In this document: positions 3,162 to 12,210 of the stretch, one piece after another
Layout of the letters: every line of letters starts with the position of its first letter
How positions within the stretch are numbered: position 1 is the stretch's first letter
DNA from: Alphaproteobacteria bacterium
GTDB taxonomy: Bacteria; Pseudomonadota; Alphaproteobacteria; Micropepsales; Micropepsaceae
Assembly: GCA_016124635.1 (NCBI GenBank)
Contig: WGNJ01000013.1
Span: 1-64,000, forward strand
DNA: 64,000 nucleotides
Reading direction: 5' to 3'
Position numbers and translations under genes: made by a program
The notes under the pieces: generated by a model
What the model saw: only the letters and a program-made list of their open reading frames with translations
What the model was told of the DNA's origin: nothing
The model's database searches: none

Positions 3162-3619
3162 ACGCGGAAGACGCGCGCTGGATCGATCTCGCTTTGGCGG
3201 AGGCCCAGAACGCCGCCGACAACGGCGAGGTTCCGGTCGGTGCAGTCATCATCGGTCCCAACAGTCAGTTGTTGGCGGCCGCAGGCAACAAGATCGTCGA
3301 GTTGCACGATCCGACGGCGCACGCCGAGATGCTGGTGATGCGCTCCGCCGCAACGCACCTCGGCAACGAGCGGCTGATCGGCACGACGCTCTACGTGACG
3401 CTCGAGCCTTGCGCCATGTGCGTCGGCGCCATGTCGCTCGCCCGCATCAAGCGTTTGGTCTACGCCGCGCCCGATCCGAAGGGCGGCGCCGTCGCCCACG
3501 GGCCGCGCTTCTTCGAGCAGCCGACCTGCCACCATCGTCCTGAAGCCGTGCATCTGGGCGGCGAGGCGGAGGCCAAATCCGCCGAGCTGCTCCGCAGGTT
3601 CTTCAAAGCCCGCCGCTAG
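3158..3619 (+). CDS. tadA: tRNA-specific adenosine deaminase TadA
   Basis: Deaminates adenosine 34 of tRNA-Arg(ACG) to inosine, an essential wobble modification. The 153-aa protein has the cytidine/deoxycytidylate deaminase zinc signature: H55-A-E57 in PTAHAEML and C85/C88 in EPCAMC. The N-terminal ALAEAQNAADNGEVPVGAVI is typical of TadA. It lies opposite the divergent rluB-rsmD pair, an arrangement known in Hyphomicrobiales. The stop codon sits inside a segment (CTAGGCCGCGCC...) that is repeated about 320 bp downstream, so the repeat array begins right at the end of this gene. Confidence 0.96.
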   Translation: MNAEDARWIDLALAEAQNAADNGEVPVGAVIIGPNSQLLAAAGNKIVELHDPTAHAEMLVMRSAATHLGNERLIGTTLYVTLEPCAMCVGAMSLARIKRLVYAAPDPKGGAVAHGPRFFEQPTCHHRPEAVHLGGEAEAKSAELLRRFFKARR

Positions 3620-3652
3620 GCCGCGCCACCAATCCCGCACCGCTGAGTCTTT

Positions 3653-3865
3653 CCTCCCCTGCATGCGGAACGCATGCGGGCGGAGGTGGATCGCCGCGGA
3701 ACGCGGCGAGACGGAGGGGGTGCGGCTGAAGCGCCGAGCATTCACTGCGTGCAAGTCTCGCGCGCGGCGAGCCACCCCCTCCGTCTCGCCACCGTCGCTC
3801 TGCGATTACGTCGACGCAATGCGGGCTCGCCACCTCCGCCCGCCCGCATTCGCGTGCAGGGGAGG
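3653..3865. repeat. Nested palindromic element, copy 1
   Basis: The outer arms 3653-3689 (CCTCCCCTGCATGCGG...GGAGGTGG) and 3830-3865 (CCACCTCCGCCCG...GCAGGGGAGG) are imperfect inverted repeats. Inside them, 3705-3722 (GGCGAGACGGAGGGGGTG) is perfectly complementary to 3773-3790, an 18-bp stem. A further small hairpin, GCCGCGGAACGCGGC, lies at about 3692-3706. RNA or single-stranded DNA could fold into a branched structure. There is no transposase and no clear target-site duplication. Confidence 0.75.
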
Positions 3866-3979
3866 AACAGTTGCTTTCAAAGCGCATCGCCGAATCCTCT
3901 TTCCTCCCCTGCGCGCGGGCTGTATGCGCGCTTGGTGCTAGGCCGCGCCGCCAATCCCGCGCCACCGCAATTTCGTTTT

Positions 3980-4204
3980 CCTCCCCTGCCGCGCGGAACG
4001 CGCGCGCGGGCGGAGGTGGATCGCCGCGGAACGCGGCGAGACGGAGGGGGTGTGGCTGAAGCGCCGAGCGTTCAATGCATGCGGCTAGCGCGCGGTGAGC
4101 CCCCCCGGCTCGCCCCCCCCCGGCTCGCCACCGTCGCTCTGCGATCACGTCGACGCAATACGGGCTCGCCACCTCCGCCCGCACGCATTCGCGTGCAGGG
4201 GGGA
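3980..4204. repeat. Nested palindromic element, copy 2
   Basis: A diverged copy of the element at 3653-3865. The left arm (CCTCCCCTGCCGCGCGG...GGAGGTGG) and right arm (CCACCTCCGCCCGCACG...GCAGGGG) are retained. The inner 18-bp stem seen in copy 1 is destroyed on its right side, replaced by a C-rich run with a short internal duplication of CCCCCCGGCTCGCC near 4100-4128. This pattern suggests copy 2 is decaying or arose by slippage. Confidence 0.7.
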
Positions 4205-4268
4205 AAGAGTCCCTTCGATATCCGCACGCTAACGTCATGCGCACAGGAGGAACGTCAGGCTCCGAAAA

Positions 4269-5762
4269 TCACCCCGCGGCGCCTGCGATCGCCGCGTCGA
4301 GAAAATTGCCGACGTTTTCGGCGACGTCGCGCTGATTCGCCAGAACGGCAAAGCGCCATCCGGCGGGTTTTCTGTAGGCGCGCACGACGGCGCCCACGCC
4401 GTTGAAGTAGCCGCCGTGGCCGTACCATTCGCCGTTCTGGCCGAGCTGGAAACCATAGCCGTAGGGTGGTGTGCCTTCGGGCGTCCGCTTCGACGTGAAC
4501 GTCGCAACGGCCTCGGCGGGCGCGAATGTGCCGCCCTCGAGAAGGTCGAAGAAGCGCATCATGTCCGCCGTGGTCGAATAGCAGCCGCCCGCCGAAACGC
4601 ACCGCCTCGGCAGAAAGGGCGCGTTGCTCAAAAACGCAGGCCCGGAATCGGTCTGCGTCCGGTCATAACCGATCGCCAGATTCGCAACCTCGCCCACGGC
4701 GAAGCAACCGGAGTCCTTCATCCTGGCTGGCGCAAACACGAACTTCGCGATGTAATCGAAATAGGACATGCCGCTCACCCGCTCGATGATCTTTCCGAGA
4801 ACCAGGAAGCCGGCGTTCGAGTAGCTGTAGTCGGAGCCGGGTTTGAACGCGGTCTCCAAAGGCACGGCCACCTTGAGAAAGTCATCGATGGTGTTGAGGG
4901 ACGCCTTGTCGGCCGCGTCGTATTTCGCTCCGAAGTAATTGCCGAGCCCGGATGTGTGCGACAGAAGCTGCGCGATCGTGATGTCGTTTGCGTTCGAGGG
5001 CGCGGGCACGCCGAGATCGAATTCCGACAAGGGGCTGTCGAGCCTCAAGCGGCCGTCCTTGATCAACTTCATGATCGCGGCCGCCGTCCACATCTTGGAG
5101 GCCGAGCCGAGATTGAATTTCGTGTTGCGGTCGTTTGCGGCCTTGCTGTCGAGATCCGCGTACCCCCATGCCTGGTCGACGATCGCCTTGCCGGCCCGCT
5201 CCAGCCGAACGGCGCCCGAAAAGAGGTGCTGCTTCTCGAGCGTGGCGACATAACGCGCAACGGCCTCGCTTAGCCCCGTTGCCGACGAATTCGAAAGATA
5301 CTCCGTAACAGTACGCGGCCAGTCGAAGCCGACGGCAATGCGTTTGATGCGCGCGTGCGGTCCCGTCTCCGTCGTCAGCTCGATCGTCCGCCATTCGCGC
5401 GTTAGCGCGTGTCGCGCGCGCAGGCGCAGCGTGTTGCCCTCGTTGGCCAACAGCTCGCCCGCTTCGAGCGCGCCGCGCGCCCGCGCATCGAGAAAGAGCT
5501 GAATGCGCACTTCGGTGGGAACGGCGCTCTTGTAATCGTCCGTGTAGGCACGCTCGATGAAGGCGCGAATGCCCGCCGTATCCGCCTTTCCGAAGGTGCC
5601 CAAGAAGTCTTGCAGGCGCGCGCCCGCTTCCGTCCGCGGCAGCGGCGCGCCCTCGGCCGCGACGGCGCAATCCGCGCCCGCCAATGCGATCGCCGCGATG
5701 GCGATCATCACCGCCACCACCACATTCGCCGGACGGGCAAACGAGACGTCGAAACGTGTCAT
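4269..5762 (-). CDS. Exported serine hydrolase, class C beta-lactamase / CubicO-like fold
   Basis: A 497-aa protein with an N-terminal signal peptide (hydrophobic VVVAVMIAIAAIALAG, cleavage near AVAAEG, residue 37), so periplasmic or secreted. An N-terminal region (about 45-150) precedes a beta-lactamase-related domain (about 165-495). That domain carries S220-x-x-K223 in NLGSASK, Y314-S-N316 in DYSYSNAG, and a C-terminal HGG motif (WYGHGGYFNG), the three active-site motifs of penicillin-recognising serine enzymes. Such proteins are usually esterases or D-Ala-D-Ala peptidases rather than true beta-lactamases. I chose the ATG at 5762 because it starts a proper signal peptide; the frame's earlier starts overlap the upstream island gene. 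Substrate unknown. Confidence 0.87.
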   Translation of the reverse strand: MTRFDVSFARPANVVVAVMIAIAAIALAGADCAVAAEGAPLPRTEAGARLQDFLGTFGKADTAGIRAFIERAYTDDYKSAVPTEVRIQLFLDARARGALEAGELLANEGNTLRLRARHALTREWRTIELTTETGPHARIKRIAVGFDWPRTVTEYLSNSSATGLSEAVARYVATLEKQHLFSGAVRLERAGKAIVDQAWGYADLDSKAANDRNTKFNLGSASKMWTAAAIMKLIKDGRLRLDSPLSEFDLGVPAPSNANDITIAQLLSHTSGLGNYFGAKYDAADKASLNTIDDFLKVAVPLETAFKPGSDYSYSNAGFLVLGKIIERVSGMSYFDYIAKFVFAPARMKDSGCFAVGEVANLAIGYDRTQTDSGPAFLSNAPFLPRRCVSAGGCYSTTADMMRFFDLLEGGTFAPAEAVATFTSKRTPEGTPPYGYGFQLGQNGEWYGHGGYFNGVGAVVRAYRKPAGWRFAVLANQRDVAENVGNFLDAAIAGAAG

Positions 5763-5958
5763 CGATCCTGCCTCCCGCCGGCTGCCTCGACAGCGGATGC
5801 CGTTCGCCGGTCGCCCGAGAGCGTTTCTAAGTGAGCGAGGCGAGTCCGAAAACACACGATATCGGGAGTTGTCCGCAGCTTGGACGAGCCGGCAGACGCT
5901 TATCTTTGGAAGCATGCCGTCCGTCGTCCCGCGCCGTCGACGGCGTGGAGCCAGGCGA

Positions 5959-7089
5959 TCAAACCGAGAAGAATTGCGAGAGAGGGCATGCGTCGGCTGC
6001 AAGAGATACCGACCAAGTGTCAAAGCCCCGAGCGCCCAAATTCCGCAGCCGAACGATGCCCGGTACTTCGCCAGCAGGCTCAATTGTAATGTCGGCTTCC
6101 CTGAGCGTGCGCTCAGTAGCTTTGTCCAACGGATGAGTCACTCGTTTCCTTCGCTGAAACGGCGCACTTGAGAAAGCTTTGTCCGTCAGGTCCAGAATGC
6201 GAGAGACATCAGATCGTGACGGCCTTTTGTGATTGCCACGGTTGTAGGGGCATAGAATGGCGAATGGAGAAGGAAGGAGCATTTCCTTCCACACTTCATC
6301 GTTGTGAGCGTTTTGTGCTCCGTGATGCGCTACCTTGTACACAGCCGCCTTCCCCGCCGGCCGCTCGGTCGATCGGACTATTACTTGCCAGCCGGTATTC
6401 GGGTCACCAGTTTCTTCAAGGTCGCCTCCGAGCAAAATCGAAATTGGTCCCACCTCGATCCAGGACGCGACAGACAGTTGGTTCGGCATGAGTGCAGGAA
6501 ATCGCTTGAATCTAGTCTGCTCGTCGAGGAGCGACGCTACAGCTCGCAGAAAAGTTTCAAACCGTTCGTCGGCGGGCGAGAGCGACCAAACTCTCGCTTG
6601 ATGTCCATGCGCAGCGTCTTTGGCTTGAAGCGTGTACAGCGCCCGATTTGGCGCTGCACGCAAAACCGTACGCCTCCGTTTGCTTAGGATACCGATCACC
6701 TCGTAGATTTCTGCCACTCCGGAAGAAACCTTACCAAGGTGAGCTCCGTTGTAAGCTTTGGCCGTCGCAAGAAACTCTTCCTTACCAAGAGCGCCAGCCG
6801 CACAGAAACTTGCTCGGTCACAGCTGCTAACGAGCTGCGCCAGGCCTTTGATGTGATCATCATGCCAATGCGATGCAATTATTAGCGAGACAGATTTCGG
6901 GGTGATACCTATGGCTTTCAGGTAGGCGAGTGCAGCGGGCTCACCGGAGTTCGAATCGACGCAGCTATCGGATATGAGCCAGTGGTCGCTACCAAGGTGA
7001 ATGAGAACGCATTCGCCGAATCCAGGACCGATGAGCGTGACTTCAAGCTGATCCGCTGCCGGTGGATTCCAGTCGAAATCCTGGATCAT
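5959..7089 (-). CDS. ComEC/Rec2-like metallo-beta-lactamase-fold hydrolase (third gene of island cassette)
   Basis: A 376-aa soluble MBL-fold hydrolase. It shows the metal-binding motif SHWHDDH (H74, H76, D78, H79), a later ILLGGDLEE (D223) and KVAHHGAQN (H255-H256). This motif order (HxHxDH, GD, HHG) matches the C-terminal hydrolase domain of ComEC/Rec2 DNA-uptake proteins and stand-alone relatives, thought to be phosphodiesterases or nucleases. No membrane segment is visible, so it acts in the cytoplasm. I chose the ATG at 7089, which overlaps the upstream stop by 4 nt (ATGA), over a GTG two codons earlier. It is the last gene of a three-gene operon. Base composition is visibly AT-richer than the neighbouring core genes. 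Substrate and role unknown. Confidence 0.8.
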   Translation of the reverse strand: MIQDFDWNPPAADQLEVTLIGPGFGECVLIHLGSDHWLISDSCVDSNSGEPAALAYLKAIGITPKSVSLIIASHWHDDHIKGLAQLVSSCDRASFCAAGALGKEEFLATAKAYNGAHLGKVSSGVAEIYEVIGILSKRRRTVLRAAPNRALYTLQAKDAAHGHQARVWSLSPADERFETFLRAVASLLDEQTRFKRFPALMPNQLSVASWIEVGPISILLGGDLEETGDPNTGWQVIVRSTERPAGKAAVYKVAHHGAQNAHNDEVWKEMLLPSPFAILCPYNRGNHKRPSRSDVSRILDLTDKAFSSAPFQRRKRVTHPLDKATERTLREADITIEPAGEVPGIVRLRNLGARGFDTWSVSLAADACPLSQFFSV

Positions 7090-7673
7090 TCCCACTTCAG
7101 AGACGCAGCTGTTGTTCGAGCCTCCGATTGAGCGCTCTTGATTTCATTCTTGGTCCATCGGGGAAGACGACGGATGAGGATAATGGACGCCCGCTTTTTT
7201 TGACCCGATCGAGTGATTTCATATCCCACAACCCACCTCAACACCTGTCCGATGGCCAATCGCTTTCGGGCATCCTCGTCGAGTTCCTCGATCGGAATTT
7301 CTGCCTTTATCCGGCCGCCGGTTGGATCTCGAAGATCGACGAGTTCAACCTCAAAGGTTGTCTCCCCAATTGCCGAAACGTAGCCATCCCATTCATTCGA
7401 CGCTTGGAAACCAGCCACGTATGGATCACGCGATGCCAACCGCGCTGGAAGATCGTTCGGCAACGCATCTGGGTCTGTGATCGGCTGCCCGCTACTGCTG
7501 CCATTTGCAATCGGCGTTGCCGCGCTTTCCGATGGCGCAGGAAGAACGCCAGGGTGGGGCGTGCGCGAAGAGTAATATTGCTCCCAGAGTTCGGCCGCTT
7601 TTGCAGGTTGGGCACGCGTTTGTGTCCCAACCTCTGGCGCACCGCGCGTGGAATACTGGTCGCGTTTGCTCAT
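7086..7673 (-). CDS. Unrecognised 195-aa protein, disordered N-terminus plus beta-rich domain (second gene of island cassette)
   Basis: No family recognised. Residues 1 to about 85 are rich in Ser, Pro, Ala, Gln and Thr and look disordered. Residues about 90-175 alternate short charged and hydrophobic strands (WDGYVSAIGETTFEVELVDL, then a charged helix-like EIPIEELDEDARKRLAIG, then QVLRWVVGYE and RASIILIRRL). The pattern suggests a compact beta-barrel (SH3- or OB-like) domain. The C-terminus is Lys/Glu-rich. It is linked to the genes on both sides by 4-nt ATGA overlaps, so stoichiometric production or a complex with them is plausible. An adaptor or nucleic-acid-binding role is inference only. 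Confidence 0.75.
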   Translation of the reverse strand: MSKRDQYSTRGAPEVGTQTRAQPAKAAELWEQYYSSRTPHPGVLPAPSESAATPIANGSSSGQPITDPDALPNDLPARLASRDPYVAGFQASNEWDGYVSAIGETTFEVELVDLRDPTGGRIKAEIPIEELDEDARKRLAIGQVLRWVVGYEITRSGQKKRASIILIRRLPRWTKNEIKSAQSEARTTAASLKWE

Positions 7674-8458
7674 GGCTTTAGTGCCATCACCTGGTCAATG
7701 ATCTGCTCCGATCGCAGCACTGAGTCATCAAATCGGGAGTCCAGGAGACCAACTATCTCTAGGCTACCTTCAAGGTTGTCCTGGGACTTAAGTTCAAAGT
7801 GATCGTTAATTTCGACGAAGACCCCAGAATTTGCCTCGATCTTTGAGGATGGTTGCACGATCGCTTGAATGTACCCGCGCGGTCGATCATCGGTGTCACG
7901 TTGTTGCATTACGAGGGTCATCATACCGCCGTGCCGATCGGCATCGCCGGCTCGGATTTTGGTTGCCCAGGCTCCCCAGGCTTCTGGTGGGGCGAGCTTG
8001 TAGCCGATCTGATCGCGATTTGCTTGCGATCCCACGCCAAAGTGAACGCTGAGGTTAATTCCCATTTTCCCGATCGGGGTATGGGGCAGGACTTCTTTGA
8101 ACGTGCGCACTACCAGGTCCTTTAGCCTGACGAATGGCTTGGAGCTCGTCTGAGCTGTAAATCTCTCCGGCTGAACCTCAATCCTGAAGAGATCAAAACC
8201 GATCTTCGTAATCTGCTGATGAACAATCTCGACCTCCGCCTCGTTGGCTTCAGCTGGCGCCAACAGGTCATTCCGCACAAACCAATCCGGATTGAATATG
8301 CGCGGGTTGAAGCTCCCAACGAGCACGATCGCGATCTGACTATATTGTGGCTCTATTCTCACGAACCGATGCCCCCTGCGATTGAGGGAATCATTCGCTC
8401 CTGACTCGGTCAATTGGGCCATGCTAGGTGTTATCATTTTCCGCATTTCCGTGTTCAT
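7670..8458 (-). CDS. Unrecognised 262-aa protein (first gene of island cassette)
   Basis: No family recognised with confidence. After a polar N-terminus comes a conserved-looking segment (about residues 38-60: YSQIAIVLVGSFNPRIF then NPDWF), then alternating strands and helices. No signal peptide, membrane span, Walker motif or metal-binding cluster is visible. The start is uncertain: the ATG at 8458 is the longest, and the ATG at 8422 (MAQLTESG) is also possible. It heads a three-gene operon, and its stop overlaps the next start by 4 nt. Immediately upstream (to the right) is a phage-type helicase operon on the same strand. Recruitment of the MBL enzyme to a target is one possible role, but is inference. 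Confidence 0.72.
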   Translation of the reverse strand: MNTEMRKMITPSMAQLTESGANDSLNRRGHRFVRIEPQYSQIAIVLVGSFNPRIFNPDWFVRNDLLAPAEANEAEVEIVHQQITKIGFDLFRIEVQPERFTAQTSSKPFVRLKDLVVRTFKEVLPHTPIGKMGINLSVHFGVGSQANRDQIGYKLAPPEAWGAWATKIRAGDADRHGGMMTLVMQQRDTDDRPRGYIQAIVQPSSKIEANSGVFVEINDHFELKSQDNLEGSLEIVGLLDSRFDDSVLRSEQIIDQVMALKP

Positions 8459-8512
8459 CGTGCAACGGTCTCAGGTTCACTTTGTTCAGATTTGGGGCGC
8501 GCTTTGCCGAGT

Positions 8513-9604
8513 TCACCGCTCCATCAGCCAAATGTGCGGCGCGCTGACGGCGATGAGCTTCGCGACGGTCAGGTGCGTAATCGCCCGCGCGATGGCGCGG
8601 CGCACCGCGTCGTCGGTGGTTTCGGTCGTGCGCTTCTTGCCGACGAAGATCCATTTGTCCTTCGTGATCACGCGCACCATCGGTAGGCCCGCCGGCGCCG
8701 GCTCGCCGTACTCGGCGATGGCTTCGCGCAACCAGTCGAGCGCCTGCAGCGTGCCTTTCGACAGGCGCGCCTCCGGCCCCTCGTTCTCCGCTCCAGCGTC
8801 GCATTCCTCCACGACGCAGGTCGTGATCGCGTCGCCGTCGGCGTCGGTGCCGAGGTCGATGACCTTGAGCCTGAAGCCGTGCGAATGCCCGTCGCTATCG
8901 TCGCGCGCTTTGACGACGCGAAGCGATCGCGCGCCGCCGATCGCGCGTTTGACTTCGACCTCGACGTCGGCGGCCCCTTTGAGGCTCGTGTGCCCGCGCC
9001 CGCCGCGATCAATATCCTTGCCGGTGTGATGGATCACCATGACGTGAGCGCTGGTCTCGGCACGGATACGATCGAAGATGCCGATCATCTGCGTCATATC
9101 GTCGGGCGCATTTTCGTTGCCGCCGCTCATGCTGCGCGAGAGCGTATCGACGACCAGAAGCTCGATGCTCCGTTCGCGCACCGCGTCGATGACGCCGGCG
9201 ATGGCCGCCCCGTCCGAGAACAGATTGAGCGGCTGGGCGTAGAAAAAGAGGTTCGGCGCTTCGCCGCCGACTTGCGTCAGCGCCGCCATGCGCTTGCGAA
9301 ATCCGCTTTCACCTTCAAGCGCGAGATAGAGCGTCGAGGCGCGCGACACGCGCCTGCCGAACACCGCGCGGCCGCGCTCGATCGAATGGGCGATGTATTG
9401 CGCAAGAAAGGTCTTGCCGCAGCCGGGCGGTCCGTACCACACGCTGAGCTCGGCGGGATAAATCAGACCCTTGAGCAGATAGCGCCGCTCGCGGTCGAGG
9501 CGGCAGAGCGACGAGCTATGCACCATGAGCGCCGCGGCGCGGCGGTTCGCACGCTGACGCCGCTCTTGTGCTTCGGCGACAGCAAGAGGAATGGGCTCGC
9601 TCAT
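8513..9604 (-). CDS. RepA-like hexameric AAA/RecA-fold helicase-type ATPase of a mobile element
   Basis: A 363-aa ATPase of the plasmid RSF1010 RepA / AAA_25 type, which act as replicative helicases on phage and plasmid elements. Walker A is GPPGCGKT (G58-T65), Walker B is ELLVVDTLS (D153), and the later HVMVIHHTGKD is typical of RepA/DnaB-like RecA folds. The C-terminal part (about 280-363) is basic and could be a winged-helix domain. The ATG at 9604 overlaps the stop of the preceding gene by 4 nt. Unlike the cassette to its left it is GC-rich. It probably belongs to a prophage or integrative-element remnant, since no integrase or capsid gene is present. Confidence 0.85.
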   Translation of the reverse strand: MSEPIPLAVAEAQERRQRANRRAAALMVHSSSLCRLDRERRYLLKGLIYPAELSVWYGPPGCGKTFLAQYIAHSIERGRAVFGRRVSRASTLYLALEGESGFRKRMAALTQVGGEAPNLFFYAQPLNLFSDGAAIAGVIDAVRERSIELLVVDTLSRSMSGGNENAPDDMTQMIGIFDRIRAETSAHVMVIHHTGKDIDRGGRGHTSLKGAADVEVEVKRAIGGARSLRVVKARDDSDGHSHGFRLKVIDLGTDADGDAITTCVVEECDAGAENEGPEARLSKGTLQALDWLREAIAEYGEPAPAGLPMVRVITKDKWIFVGKKRTTETTDDAVRRAIARAITHLTVAKLIAVSAPHIWLMER

Positions 9605-10194
9605 GCCGCCGCCTCCGCGTCGGCGATGAACACCGGCGGCGCCGCGAGCGCAATTTGCAGGCGCCGCTCGATCATCCGCCCGCTTCGGATGTCGGGCGCG
9701 ATGATGCCGTCGACACGGCGTTGCAGGAGGTAACGCGCGAACGCCCGCCAATAGACCGGCAGCACGCCGCAACATTCAGCCTTCAACCACGACCACATGT
9801 TGAGGTGCACGCGCGGCCGAAACGCCGTCTCGCCGATCCAGCACTGCGCAAGCTCTTCGAGCCCCGCCGCGCATCCGTCCAAGTTCAGTGTCGCGACACG
9901 CGGGCCCTCCGGATCGAACGCAGCAATGGTCACGATCCAACCGGTCTCATCGGTCATCGGTATCAGCACGGACCAAATGCCCTCCTCGTCGAGATGAAAG
10001 AGCCGCGCCCCGAAATGGACCGGCGCGACCGACACATGCGCCTCGACAAGGATGCGATCAGACGCAAGCGCCAGGAGCCGCCGACGCAGCGGCATCGCCC
10101 GCCCCTGAAGATCGTGCAGAGCGGTCTGCCACAAGCAGTCCATCACCGAATCTCCGGCGCGCAAGGTCTCCAATTCATCCCTGTCAAAGTTCAT
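9601..10194 (-). CDS. Hypothetical protein encoded before the RepA-like helicase
   Basis: A 197-aa protein of unknown function, translationally coupled (ATGA) to the helicase gene. It is an alpha/beta soluble protein with many Arg, Trp and Cys residues (DCLWQTALHDLQGRA, then LNMWSWLKAECCGVLPVYW) and no recognisable catalytic motif. I prefer the ATG at 10194 (MNFDRDEL) to the earlier frame start at 10230, because the earlier start would place a palindromic operator-like box (10213-10225) inside the coding region. Its position suggests a replication accessory or loader, but that is inference. Confidence 0.7.
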   Translation of the reverse strand: MNFDRDELETLRAGDSVMDCLWQTALHDLQGRAMPLRRRLLALASDRILVEAHVSVAPVHFGARLFHLDEEGIWSVLIPMTDETGWIVTIAAFDPEGPRVATLNLDGCAAGLEELAQCWIGETAFRPRVHLNMWSWLKAECCGVLPVYWRAFARYLLQRRVDGIIAPDIRSGRMIERRLQIALAAPPVFIADAEAAA

Positions 10195-10212
10195 GCTTTG
10201 GCGGCTAGCAGG

Positions 10213-10246
10213 ATATTGCGAATATATCAATACGGTATTTGCGATA
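10213..10246. promoter_or_regulatory. Operator-like boxes upstream of the helicase operon
   Basis: A 13-bp interrupted palindrome ATATT-GCG-AATAT lies at 10213-10225. A related sequence TATTTGCGATA follows about 24 bp away (about 10236-10246). They sit in a short AT-rich patch directly upstream of the chosen start of the helicase operon, where reverse-strand TATATT could serve as a -10 box. This is the usual geometry of a repressor-controlled promoter. No repressor gene is in the window. Confidence 0.5.
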
Positions 10247-10296
10247 AAAGAAAATAGCCGTTTTGAATCAAGGGGCGGACTTGGTGGACGAGCGTC

Positions 10297-10436
10297 ACGG
10301 ACAAGACAGACAGGACACCCCTAAGGAGGGATGTCTTGTCCGTCTCGTCGTTCCGGAGGCGCTGAGCGCGCGAAGCAACGGCAAGACAGACGCGGCACGC
10401 ATATAATCAGATGTCCTGTCCGCCCCGTCGGTCCCG
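10297..10436. repeat. Two inverted-repeat units spaced exactly 80 bp, possible iterons or operators
   Basis: Unit A has perfect 12-bp arms, ACGGACAAGACA (10297-10308) and TGTCTTGTCCGT (10332-10343). Unit B starts exactly 80 bp later with CAAGACAGAC (10382-10391) and the one-mismatch right arm TGTCCTGTCC (10412-10421), followed in both units by CCGTCG or TCGTCG. The gene-free stretch 10195-10516 therefore holds duplicated dyad elements upstream of a replication-type operon. This fits an origin (iterons) or regulator-binding sites. Confidence 0.65.
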
Positions 10437-10516
10437 AAGAGCGGGTTGTGCATCTGCGGATTGGAAGCGGTCTGACGGGCTGGGAATTGCAGAGGCCGTC
10501 ACTCGACGCGGCGGTG

Positions 10517-11176
10517 CTAATTCACGCGAGACAGCCAATCCATCCAGTAGGTCGGCATACGGAACAGCGCGAGATATCGTTGCCTGTTCGCCTTGCTCAT
10601 GGCCGAGTACCATTTGATCCACTCTTCCATATAGTCTTGGCCAAAACCCATCCTCCATCCGAGATCGCTTGGCTCCGCGAATTGTGGATGTTCGATCCAG
10701 GGCGGGGCGGGCACGCACGACACTAGGTCGCCCAGCGCTCCGGCAGCTAACTCACTTCTGATCTCCATCAAGATTAGACCGAGCATGTTCTTGCCGGTTC
10801 CGTCTCCGCCGTCCGCCCAGTAGGAGTCGTTTTTCGTATGCTCAACGATTGCGGCGTCGCCAGTTGATTGCAGTGCTTCGCGGACATCTGAGTGCTGCGC
10901 AGCCTTCATGCGGACGGCGAAGCGCATGATATCGTCTTTGACTTTTTCCCAGTCGTCCCGAATGCGATTGTTCCGACTTCGGCCCAGCTGAGCCGCAAGC
11001 GCTGGTGTTCCAGCACTCCGTATTTTTTGGCGCGCTTCGAGTGTCAGAAATTTTTGGGCCTGGAAATAGTGTTCGCTCGTTGGCCAGGCTTTGCCTTCGA
11101 CAAAAATCGGGTGCGCGGAGAAATTCGAAAAGCAACCGAACGGATCGACCGTCCTGTAGAAATGGATCACTGCCAT
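10517..11176 (-). CDS. NADAR-family (YbiA/RibX-like) protein with C-terminal extension
   Basis: A 219-aa protein. The first 145 residues match the NADAR (NAD- and ADP-ribose-associated) fold of E. coli YbiA: FGCFSNFSAHPIF, W31-PTSEHYFQAQKF (E35), and SYWADGGDGTGKNMLGLILMEIR. Known members are N-glycosidases acting on riboflavin-pathway intermediates, and some remove ADP-ribose from guanine in nucleic acids. Residues about 150-219 form a Trp/Tyr-rich extension (WIKWYSAMSKANRQRYLALF) not seen in short YbiA proteins. The gene is AT-richer than its GC-rich neighbour and lies inside the accessory island, so transfer is likely. Its substrate here is unknown. Confidence 0.86.
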   Translation of the reverse strand: MAVIHFYRTVDPFGCFSNFSAHPIFVEGKAWPTSEHYFQAQKFLTLEARQKIRSAGTPALAAQLGRSRNNRIRDDWEKVKDDIMRFAVRMKAAQHSDVREALQSTGDAAIVEHTKNDSYWADGGDGTGKNMLGLILMEIRSELAAGALGDLVSCVPAPPWIEHPQFAEPSDLGWRMGFGQDYMEEWIKWYSAMSKANRQRYLALFRMPTYWMDWLSRVN

Positions 11177-11467
11177 GTGGTTCTACCTCGTCGGGTCAGA
11201 ATGCCGTTCATCGAACGTCCGAATTGGTCAACAACTGTCTTCATAGCTTTCCATACATACGGGCATCCGACGAAAGAGGGTCAAACGTTTCATGCCGACA
11301 AAGCGGCAGGGCGGACATGACATCTCTTAACGCGATGACTCGTACCGTCGCCTCGGCGCTTGAATGTAGCGACAAATGCAACGATAATTGCGCTTCAAAA
11401 TCGTAGGCTGGCGCGGCCCGTATTCTCGGGTGCCGGCGCAATCCCTCCCCAATCCGAAAGCAAATCC
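11177..11467. other. Non-coding gap between the NADAR and terminase-like genes
   Basis: These 291 bases hold the divergent upstream regions of the two flanking genes. I see no convincing gene, hairpin or repeat. The sequence is AT-richer on the NADAR side and turns GC-rich toward 11420, consistent with a junction between two pieces of different origin. Confidence 0.5.
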
Positions 11468-11965
11468 ATGTCTGCCAAACCGAGGCGCTCGCCGGCGGGC
11501 GATGCGCGTTTTCTTGTGGCGCTCGAGAACGGGCACGCCGTGGCGGCCGCGTGCCAGGCGGCCGGCTATGCGCGCGCCAGCGTCTATGCCTGGCGGCGGG
11601 AGGATCCGGCCTTCGCGGCCGCGTGGGACGCGGCGGCGCAAGTTGCCAGCGACCTCCTCGAAGAGGAAGCCGACCGGCGCGGGCGCGACGGCTATGACGA
11701 GGCCGTCTTTTATCGCGGCGAAGAGGCGGGCACGCGGCGCAAATATTCCGACGGCTTGCTGCTCGCGCGGCTGAAGGCGCTCAAGCCGCAAGACTATCGC
11801 GAGAACATGCCGCTCGCGGTCGACCAGAAGCTCAGCGTGCTCATCCGCGACGTCGACGCGGAGGCGGCGTTGCGCAAGCTGATCGACGAGAACCGCCTCT
11901 CACCCGACGAGCTCGAAGAGACCTTGCGCAATCGGGTGATGGGCGCCTGCGAAAGGCAAGGCTGA
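11468..11965 (+). CDS. Phage terminase small subunit-like protein (orphan)
   Basis: A 165-aa protein with an N-terminal helix-turn-helix (about residues 10-45: ARFLVALENGHAVAAACQAAGYARASVYAWRREDPAF). The middle motif YSDGLLLARLKALKPQDYRE is typical of small terminase subunits that bind pac/cos DNA. I chose the ATG at 11468 because the longer frame start has no conserved sequence. No large terminase, portal or capsid gene follows; an ordinary acyl-CoA dehydrogenase comes next. So this is a prophage remnant, or a domesticated DNA-binding protein. A shared ancestor with other HTH proteins cannot be excluded. Confidence 0.72.
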   Translation: MSAKPRRSPAGDARFLVALENGHAVAAACQAAGYARASVYAWRREDPAFAAAWDAAAQVASDLLEEEADRRGRDGYDEAVFYRGEEAGTRRKYSDGLLLARLKALKPQDYRENMPLAVDQKLSVLIRDVDAEAALRKLIDENRLSPDELEETLRNRVMGACERQG

Positions 11966-12022
11966 GGCATCGGCACCTTGGAGGTTGCGCGACGCCATTC
12001 AAGCCAACCGAGAAACGCATGC

Positions 12023-12035
12023 GAGACAGTGTCTC
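12023..12035. promoter_or_regulatory. GAGACA-G-TGTCTC palindrome upstream of acyl-CoA dehydrogenase
   Basis: A 13-bp palindrome with 6-bp arms in the 245-bp gap between the terminase-like gene and the dehydrogenase. It is flanked by a looser outer pair, GCATGCG (about 12018) and CGCATGC (about 12042). The nested symmetry suits a dimeric repressor site, for example a fatty-acid-responsive TetR-type protein, or a remnant of the element's edge. No further evidence is available. Confidence 0.4.
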
Positions 12036-12210
12036 ATATCGCGCATGCGGCGGATTTGCGCGCGAAAACGCGCTCCGCGAGACGCCATCCGATACACCCG
12101 ACCCTTGTCTCGGTTGTCCCGTTTCCGCCGGCCGGTTCCTCTAGGCCGCGCCGTCTTCTAGCGCTACAGTCCGCCCCATCGCAATTGAAGGAACGAGGGA
12201 GCGAACAACG

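Follow-up and report, generated by a model that had tools for sequence, protein, structure and literature searches.

The DNA analysed here is a stretch of 64,000 nucleotides from a genome of the family Micropepsaceae (assembly GCA_016124635.1, contig WGNJ01000013.1), and this whole stretch is referred to as the window. It contains three consecutive open reading frames (ORFs) on the minus strand, which we call genes A, B, and C. Gene A (7670..8458, 262 aa) matches no family and encodes a candidate sensor or regulator. Gene B (7086..7673, 195 aa) encodes a disordered N-terminal part and an OB-like C-terminal domain (residues ∼88–168), and gene C encodes a ComEC-like MBL hydrolase. For gene C, two starts are available: an ATG (5959..7089, 376 aa) and a GTG (5959–7095, 378 aa). 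The methionine column of the ATG at 7089 was common to all four relatives compared first, and in this alignment the ATG is the more likely start. With this start, both junctions are 4-nt ATGA overlaps on the minus strand: A/B at 7670..7673 and B/C at 7086..7089 (counted from the conserved ATG of C). The three ORFs and two overlaps had been noticed in an earlier reading of the DNA made from its letters alone (the sequence-only reading), and we found them at the positions given there. The trio had a GC content of 54.6%, compared with 62.7% for the whole window, and no other 2.5-kb segment of the window was as low (1 of 615 positions). The GC3 values of A, B, and C were 0.54–0.61, versus 0.79–0.88 in four neighbouring genes. 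The earlier description of the trio as AT-rich is thus correct in that this is the lowest-GC stretch of the window, but the term is relative, because the trio is still 55% GC.

The trio is located in an insert of ∼8.5 kb (3620..12160) between tadA on the left and an acyl-CoA dehydrogenase gene on the right. The insert is missing in three genomes of the same genus, in which the distance between the two flanking genes is 73–130 bp. The left end of the insert carries a 12-nt repeat, CTAGGCCGCGCC (3616..3627, plus strand), which occurs again at the right end (12141–12152) and near the left end (3938–3949). The left end also contains a block of diverged repeats (3615–4215) with units of up to 111 nt, a start-to-start spacing of ∼320–340 nt, and several long inverted repeats. 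Besides the trio, the insert includes a serine β-lactamase-fold (PF00144) gene directly downstream of it (4269–5759, minus strand), whose GC3 of 0.82 is unlike that of the trio, and an AAA_25 (RepA-like) ATPase gene (8513..9604, minus strand) that lies 54 nt upstream of A in the same orientation and is not a conserved partner of the trio at other loci. The insert also includes a gene for a NADAR-domain protein (10517–11176, minus strand; Pfam E 1.5e-35); NADAR proteins are themselves tied to phage conflict. The sole trace of phage packaging near the right end was a protein that weakly matched the small subunit of the Sf6 terminase (11360–11965, plus strand; E 8.8e-6). Based on the empty site in the congeners, the repeated 12-mer at the ends, and the gene content, we regard the trio as cargo of the insert, which is itself probably mobile.

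Judged from the sequences, C is the only product of the trio with a clear enzymatic signature. The ComEC/Rec2-type active site described in the sequence-only reading (SHWHDDH, GGDLEE, and AHHGA) is present and aligned with the invariant columns of 84 relatives: D43, H76, D80, H81, D225, K254, and H258 were identical in 84/84 members, H257 in 83/84, and H78 in 82/84. C has the hallmarks of the ComEC-like MBL superfamily, i.e., HxHxDH, the aspartate of GxDLE, and HHG in the ComEC register. The best PDB match of the C family profile was the MBL domain of ComEC (9ic4, E 1.4e-13), in an alignment that kept the metal-binding and KVPHHGS motifs in register, and the solved structures closest to C were ComEC 9ic4 and 30bt. 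The metal motif of C is the canonical HxHxDH, whereas that of the ComEC chain 9ic4 is HPDADH. Among the PADLOC models, C was closest to LmuA and RTasMBL, which represent MBL proteins of known defence systems and matched 76/84 and 70/84 members, respectively; a search for the RTasMBL family in 240 genomes of the class yielded one weak locus, too few for a comparison tree. A second MBL of the same genome (L002) was rejected, being a generic lactonase-type ORF without A or B. Going by established knowledge, ComEC-like MBL proteins in phage or defence settings would be DNases used in immunity, and we consider the chance that DNA is the substrate of C to be somewhat better than even. C might instead be a nucleotide or cyclic-nucleotide phosphodiesterase, in which case the operon would degrade or regulate a second messenger, either in defence signalling or as counter-defence against CBASS or Pycsar. 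The often prophage-borne trio would fit this explanation, and MBL-fold hydrolases are reported to include phage anti-Pycsar phosphodiesterases (PMC9117128). However, the closest relatives of C are ComEC-type nucleases and defence MBL nucleases, no cyclase was seen among the recurrent neighbours of the trio, and the broad chromosomal spread is ill-suited to pure counter-defence, so that we regard a phosphodiesterase role as improbable.

The sequence-only reading had assigned A and B to no recognised family, and neither had a significant match in Pfam, NCBIfam, or PADLOC. On this ground a housekeeping pathway for the trio, which that reading had named as one outcome that would overturn its proposal, was ruled out. 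The structure model of A was confident (pLDDT 90.7) and of mixed α/β type. The matches of A in the PDB were at a level often reached by unrelated folds, and closer to it was the model of a viral protein (A0A515MGR4; E 4.5e-10, TM 0.49/0.61). AdoMetDC and McsB/arginine kinase were considered as identities of A and rejected (Foldseek TM < 0.3; VIA Z ≤ 8.6 at 4.1 Å, 11% identity). A represents a new family, and its modelled fold has no known relatives and gives no functional hint. In the model of B, the N-terminal half was of low confidence and was followed by a confident five-stranded domain, which supports the earlier description of a disordered N-terminus and a compact beta domain. The best structural matches of this domain were mostly OB folds: aIF5A (Z 7.8, the maximum), cold-shock domains, and SSB. 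Because the Foldseek matches were weak (E > 0.007), we refer to B only as "OB-like."

We searched for the three genes in other genomes. With gene A alone as the query, 80 loci were detected in genome contigs from many phyla, including Pseudomonadota, Gemmatimonadota, Acidobacteriota, Myxococcota, Bacteroidota, Verrucomicrobiota, Bacillota, a Streptomyces, and others; the chromosomal loci were mostly from MAGs. A, B, and C were present in this order on one strand at 74 of the 80 loci. The other six consisted of three contig ends, one locus with a degraded C, one beside an apparent transposase gene, and one unexplained case. With gene C alone as the query against viral contigs, the full trio was found at 33 of 34 loci, the remaining one being a contig end. 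In 398 Pseudomonadota genomes, independent searches with B and C matched the same six genomes, and in the C search the range from E 1e-88 to the limit of 1e-25 was empty. Five of the six, including the genome that contains the window, also had gene A; in the sixth, C contained a stop, and B and C were on separate contigs. Across 55 loci, pairwise distances correlated among the three genes at 0.82–0.87 (permutation maximum, 0.36), indicating that A, B, and C travel together, and their co-occurrence rules out a chance neighbourhood. On the C tree, the 15 phyla required 23 changes (minimum 14) and were more clustered than shuffled labels; the patchy distribution suggests that the trio was transferred between phyla. 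The trio was also carried by an Adhaeribacter plasmid and by a Pantoea conjugative plasmid, where two tyrosine recombinase genes flank it. The sequence-only reading had proposed asking whether the same three genes recur together in unrelated genomes and prophages, and they do so with an unchanged gene order in many phyla, whether on prophages, plasmids, or chromosomes. A-B-C is an obligate, co-inherited, mobile three-gene unit found in phage accessory sites. At one locus (L009, 8342–12821), an insertion of ∼3.4 kb divides gene C; the system is thus losing function in some of its copies, apparently through mobile DNA.

This distribution bears on another explanation, in which C is a channel-less ComEC relative for DNA processing (uptake, conjugation, or recombination) and is not involved in conflict. 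The similarity of C to the ComEC nuclease domain would fit this, as would the OB-like fold of B, since ComEC also contains an OB-fold domain. However, C scored only 26 against the ComEC/Rec2 model (TIGR00361, 190 bits) and was matched over the MBL part only, and the trio differs from ComEC/Rec2 in having no membrane channel and in placing the functions on separate proteins. Competence genes do not adjoin the trio, its distribution is patchy (6/398 genomes), its composition is foreign, and it occupies phage accessory sites. We consider a DNA-processing role very improbable.

The phage accessory sites were of two kinds. In P2-like contigs, the trio occupied the interval bounded by gpA, which encodes the origin-nicking protein, and the portal gene, as confirmed with PHROGs; Rousset et al. 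(PMC9122126) describe this interval of P2-like prophages as a hotspot in which antiphage systems such as old/tin reside. In lambdoid prophages, it was located between the antiterminator Q and holin genes, with the late operon on the other strand, and annotated E. coli prophages, including that of ECOR29, showed the same Q–holin placement. Phage genome records contained no match for A or for E. coli-type C, so the virus-borne copies are prophages or metagenomic viral contigs. On chromosomes, many neighbours of the trio were ordinary genes, and approximately seven copies by raw neighbour count (L016, L024, L033, L064, and L086, and also L030 and L077) lay within or beside DUF499/DUF7680/DUF1156 methylase/PLD-helicase clusters. 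The order in these clusters was DUF499 - DUF7680 - [A-B-C] - DUF1156 methylase - PLD-helicase, and the cluster proteins matched the PADLOC HmaABC, DUF499, and PbeA models. The trio may be an effector module of this DUF499/DUF1156/PLD-helicase system.

The gene order kept across phyla, the lack of a matching housekeeping pathway, and the phage accessory sites, an antiphage hotspot among them, give good support to the central proposal of the sequence-only reading, that of a mobile module for defence or conflict, and we consider defence to be the likely function of the trio. The further division of the trio into a recognition protein, an adaptor, and an effector hydrolase in that reading is more conjectural, C alone having a clear enzymatic signature. 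Alternatively, the trio could be a toxin–antitoxin-like addiction module, in which a toxic nuclease C, restrained by A and/or B, stabilises a prophage, plasmid, or island, with defence as a by-product. The carriage on prophages and plasmids, the tight gene overlaps, and the nuclease-type active site intact in all C members are consistent with such a module. It fits less well with three conserved genes that include two large partners instead of one small labile antitoxin, with the many chromosomal copies, and with the position in the antiphage hotspot, although maintenance systems occur there too. We therefore regard a maintenance function as unlikely.

We compared the trio with known systems that employ a similar enzyme. 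The trio shares with Hachiman (HamM), AVAST type 1 (Avs1a), Lamassu, and DRT (RTasMBL) a ComEC-like MBL as the presumed effector. The MBL nucleases of bacterial immunity have so far been explained as protease-opened pro-enzymes: HamM and CanC, both related to C, are demonstrated DNases in defence, of which HamM is unlocked by a trypsin-like protease and CanC, encoded by the last of the three genes of Canu (CanABC), by a caspase complex (PMC12799240). In contrast to these gated pro-nucleases, the MBL of the trio is accompanied by two unrelated partners, A and B, and by no trypsin-like protease, STAND, helicase, SMC, or RT. For AVAST type 1, C was below the Avs1a cut-off (NF041809, 420 bits), with scores of 16.5 for the window, 15.5 for E. 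coli, and 17.4 for Pantoea; neither a STAND NTPase nor a trypsin-like protease is encoded near the trio in the window, and no protease or STAND family was among its most frequent neighbour families elsewhere. In Lamassu, Hachiman, and DRT, an SMC protein (LmuB), HamA/HamB, or a reverse transcriptase stands beside the MBL; in the window, the trio has none of these, the neighbours of C are the serine β-lactamase-like and AAA_25 genes, and neither A nor B matches a PADLOC model. Like Canu, the trio has its MBL nuclease gene in third and final place, but it is set apart by the missing caspase, as 94 A and 73 B members gave no Pfam peptidase match; CanB and CanC were compared by description. The E. 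coli and Pantoea C proteins scored 28.3 and 24.1 bits, respectively, against 6A-MBL (NF058524), a comparison of the MBL protein alone, and scores so far under the curated cut-off of 220 bits indicate that C is not a 6A-MBL member. The three-gene system active against P1 that Rousset et al. found in the P2 hotspot is described there as having genes with "no clear predicted domain," whereas C has a Pfam domain. Thus, in these sequence comparisons, the trio resembles MBL-nuclease defences, yet it lacks the defining features of AVAST type 1, Canu, Lamassu/Hachiman/DRT, and 6A-MBL that were tested.

Our preferred reading, which we hold to be fairly probable, is that A-B-C is a mobile operon directed against phages or other mobile elements, in which C would be the DNase effector, and A and B would sense nucleic acid and present it. 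C would act as a ComEC-type metal-dependent DNase; B would bind nucleic acid through its OB-like fold and then present it to C or tether C; and A would be a sensor or regulator that holds C off until infection. Since the trio contains no protease, C would be switched on by complex formation or ligand binding instead of cleavage. Gating loops may nevertheless be hidden in C, or a host protease may be encoded elsewhere. The separate roles proposed for A and B carry less weight for us than defence or the DNA substrate. More tentatively, the trio might exemplify a protease-independent form of ComEC-nuclease immunity, in which a separate OB-fold protein and a new-family sensor license a channel-less ComEC-type DNase in many phyla, also as an insert module of methylase/helicase defence clusters. 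If so, the obligate protease-less trio would represent a second way of switching on an MBL-nuclease effector, and two unannotated protein families, A and B, would gain a function.

A search of the available papers for the accessions and the description of the trio found nothing, and neither the DefensePredictor nor the Vassallo main text refers to an MBL system. The E. coli member may nonetheless have been reported already. RefSeq gives the product name "anti-phage protein" to the E. coli A homologue WP_000143147.1 in two genomes (L139, 2501–3217; L140, 2501–3217), which makes it doubtful that the system is undescribed, as the sequence-only reading had suggested. No family model lies behind this name and no basis is stated, so we treated it as a lead. 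A near-identical trio was detected in 14 of 5,426 E. coli genomes. The trio is small (∼2.4 kb) and occurs in the E. coli reference strain ECOR29, and it is therefore directly testable in K-12. The ECOR29 copy spans L128 7668–10068, and its proteins are WP_249925928, WP_001024069, and WP_001198055. The A variant of ECOR29, WP_249925928.1, is named "hypothetical" in RefSeq.
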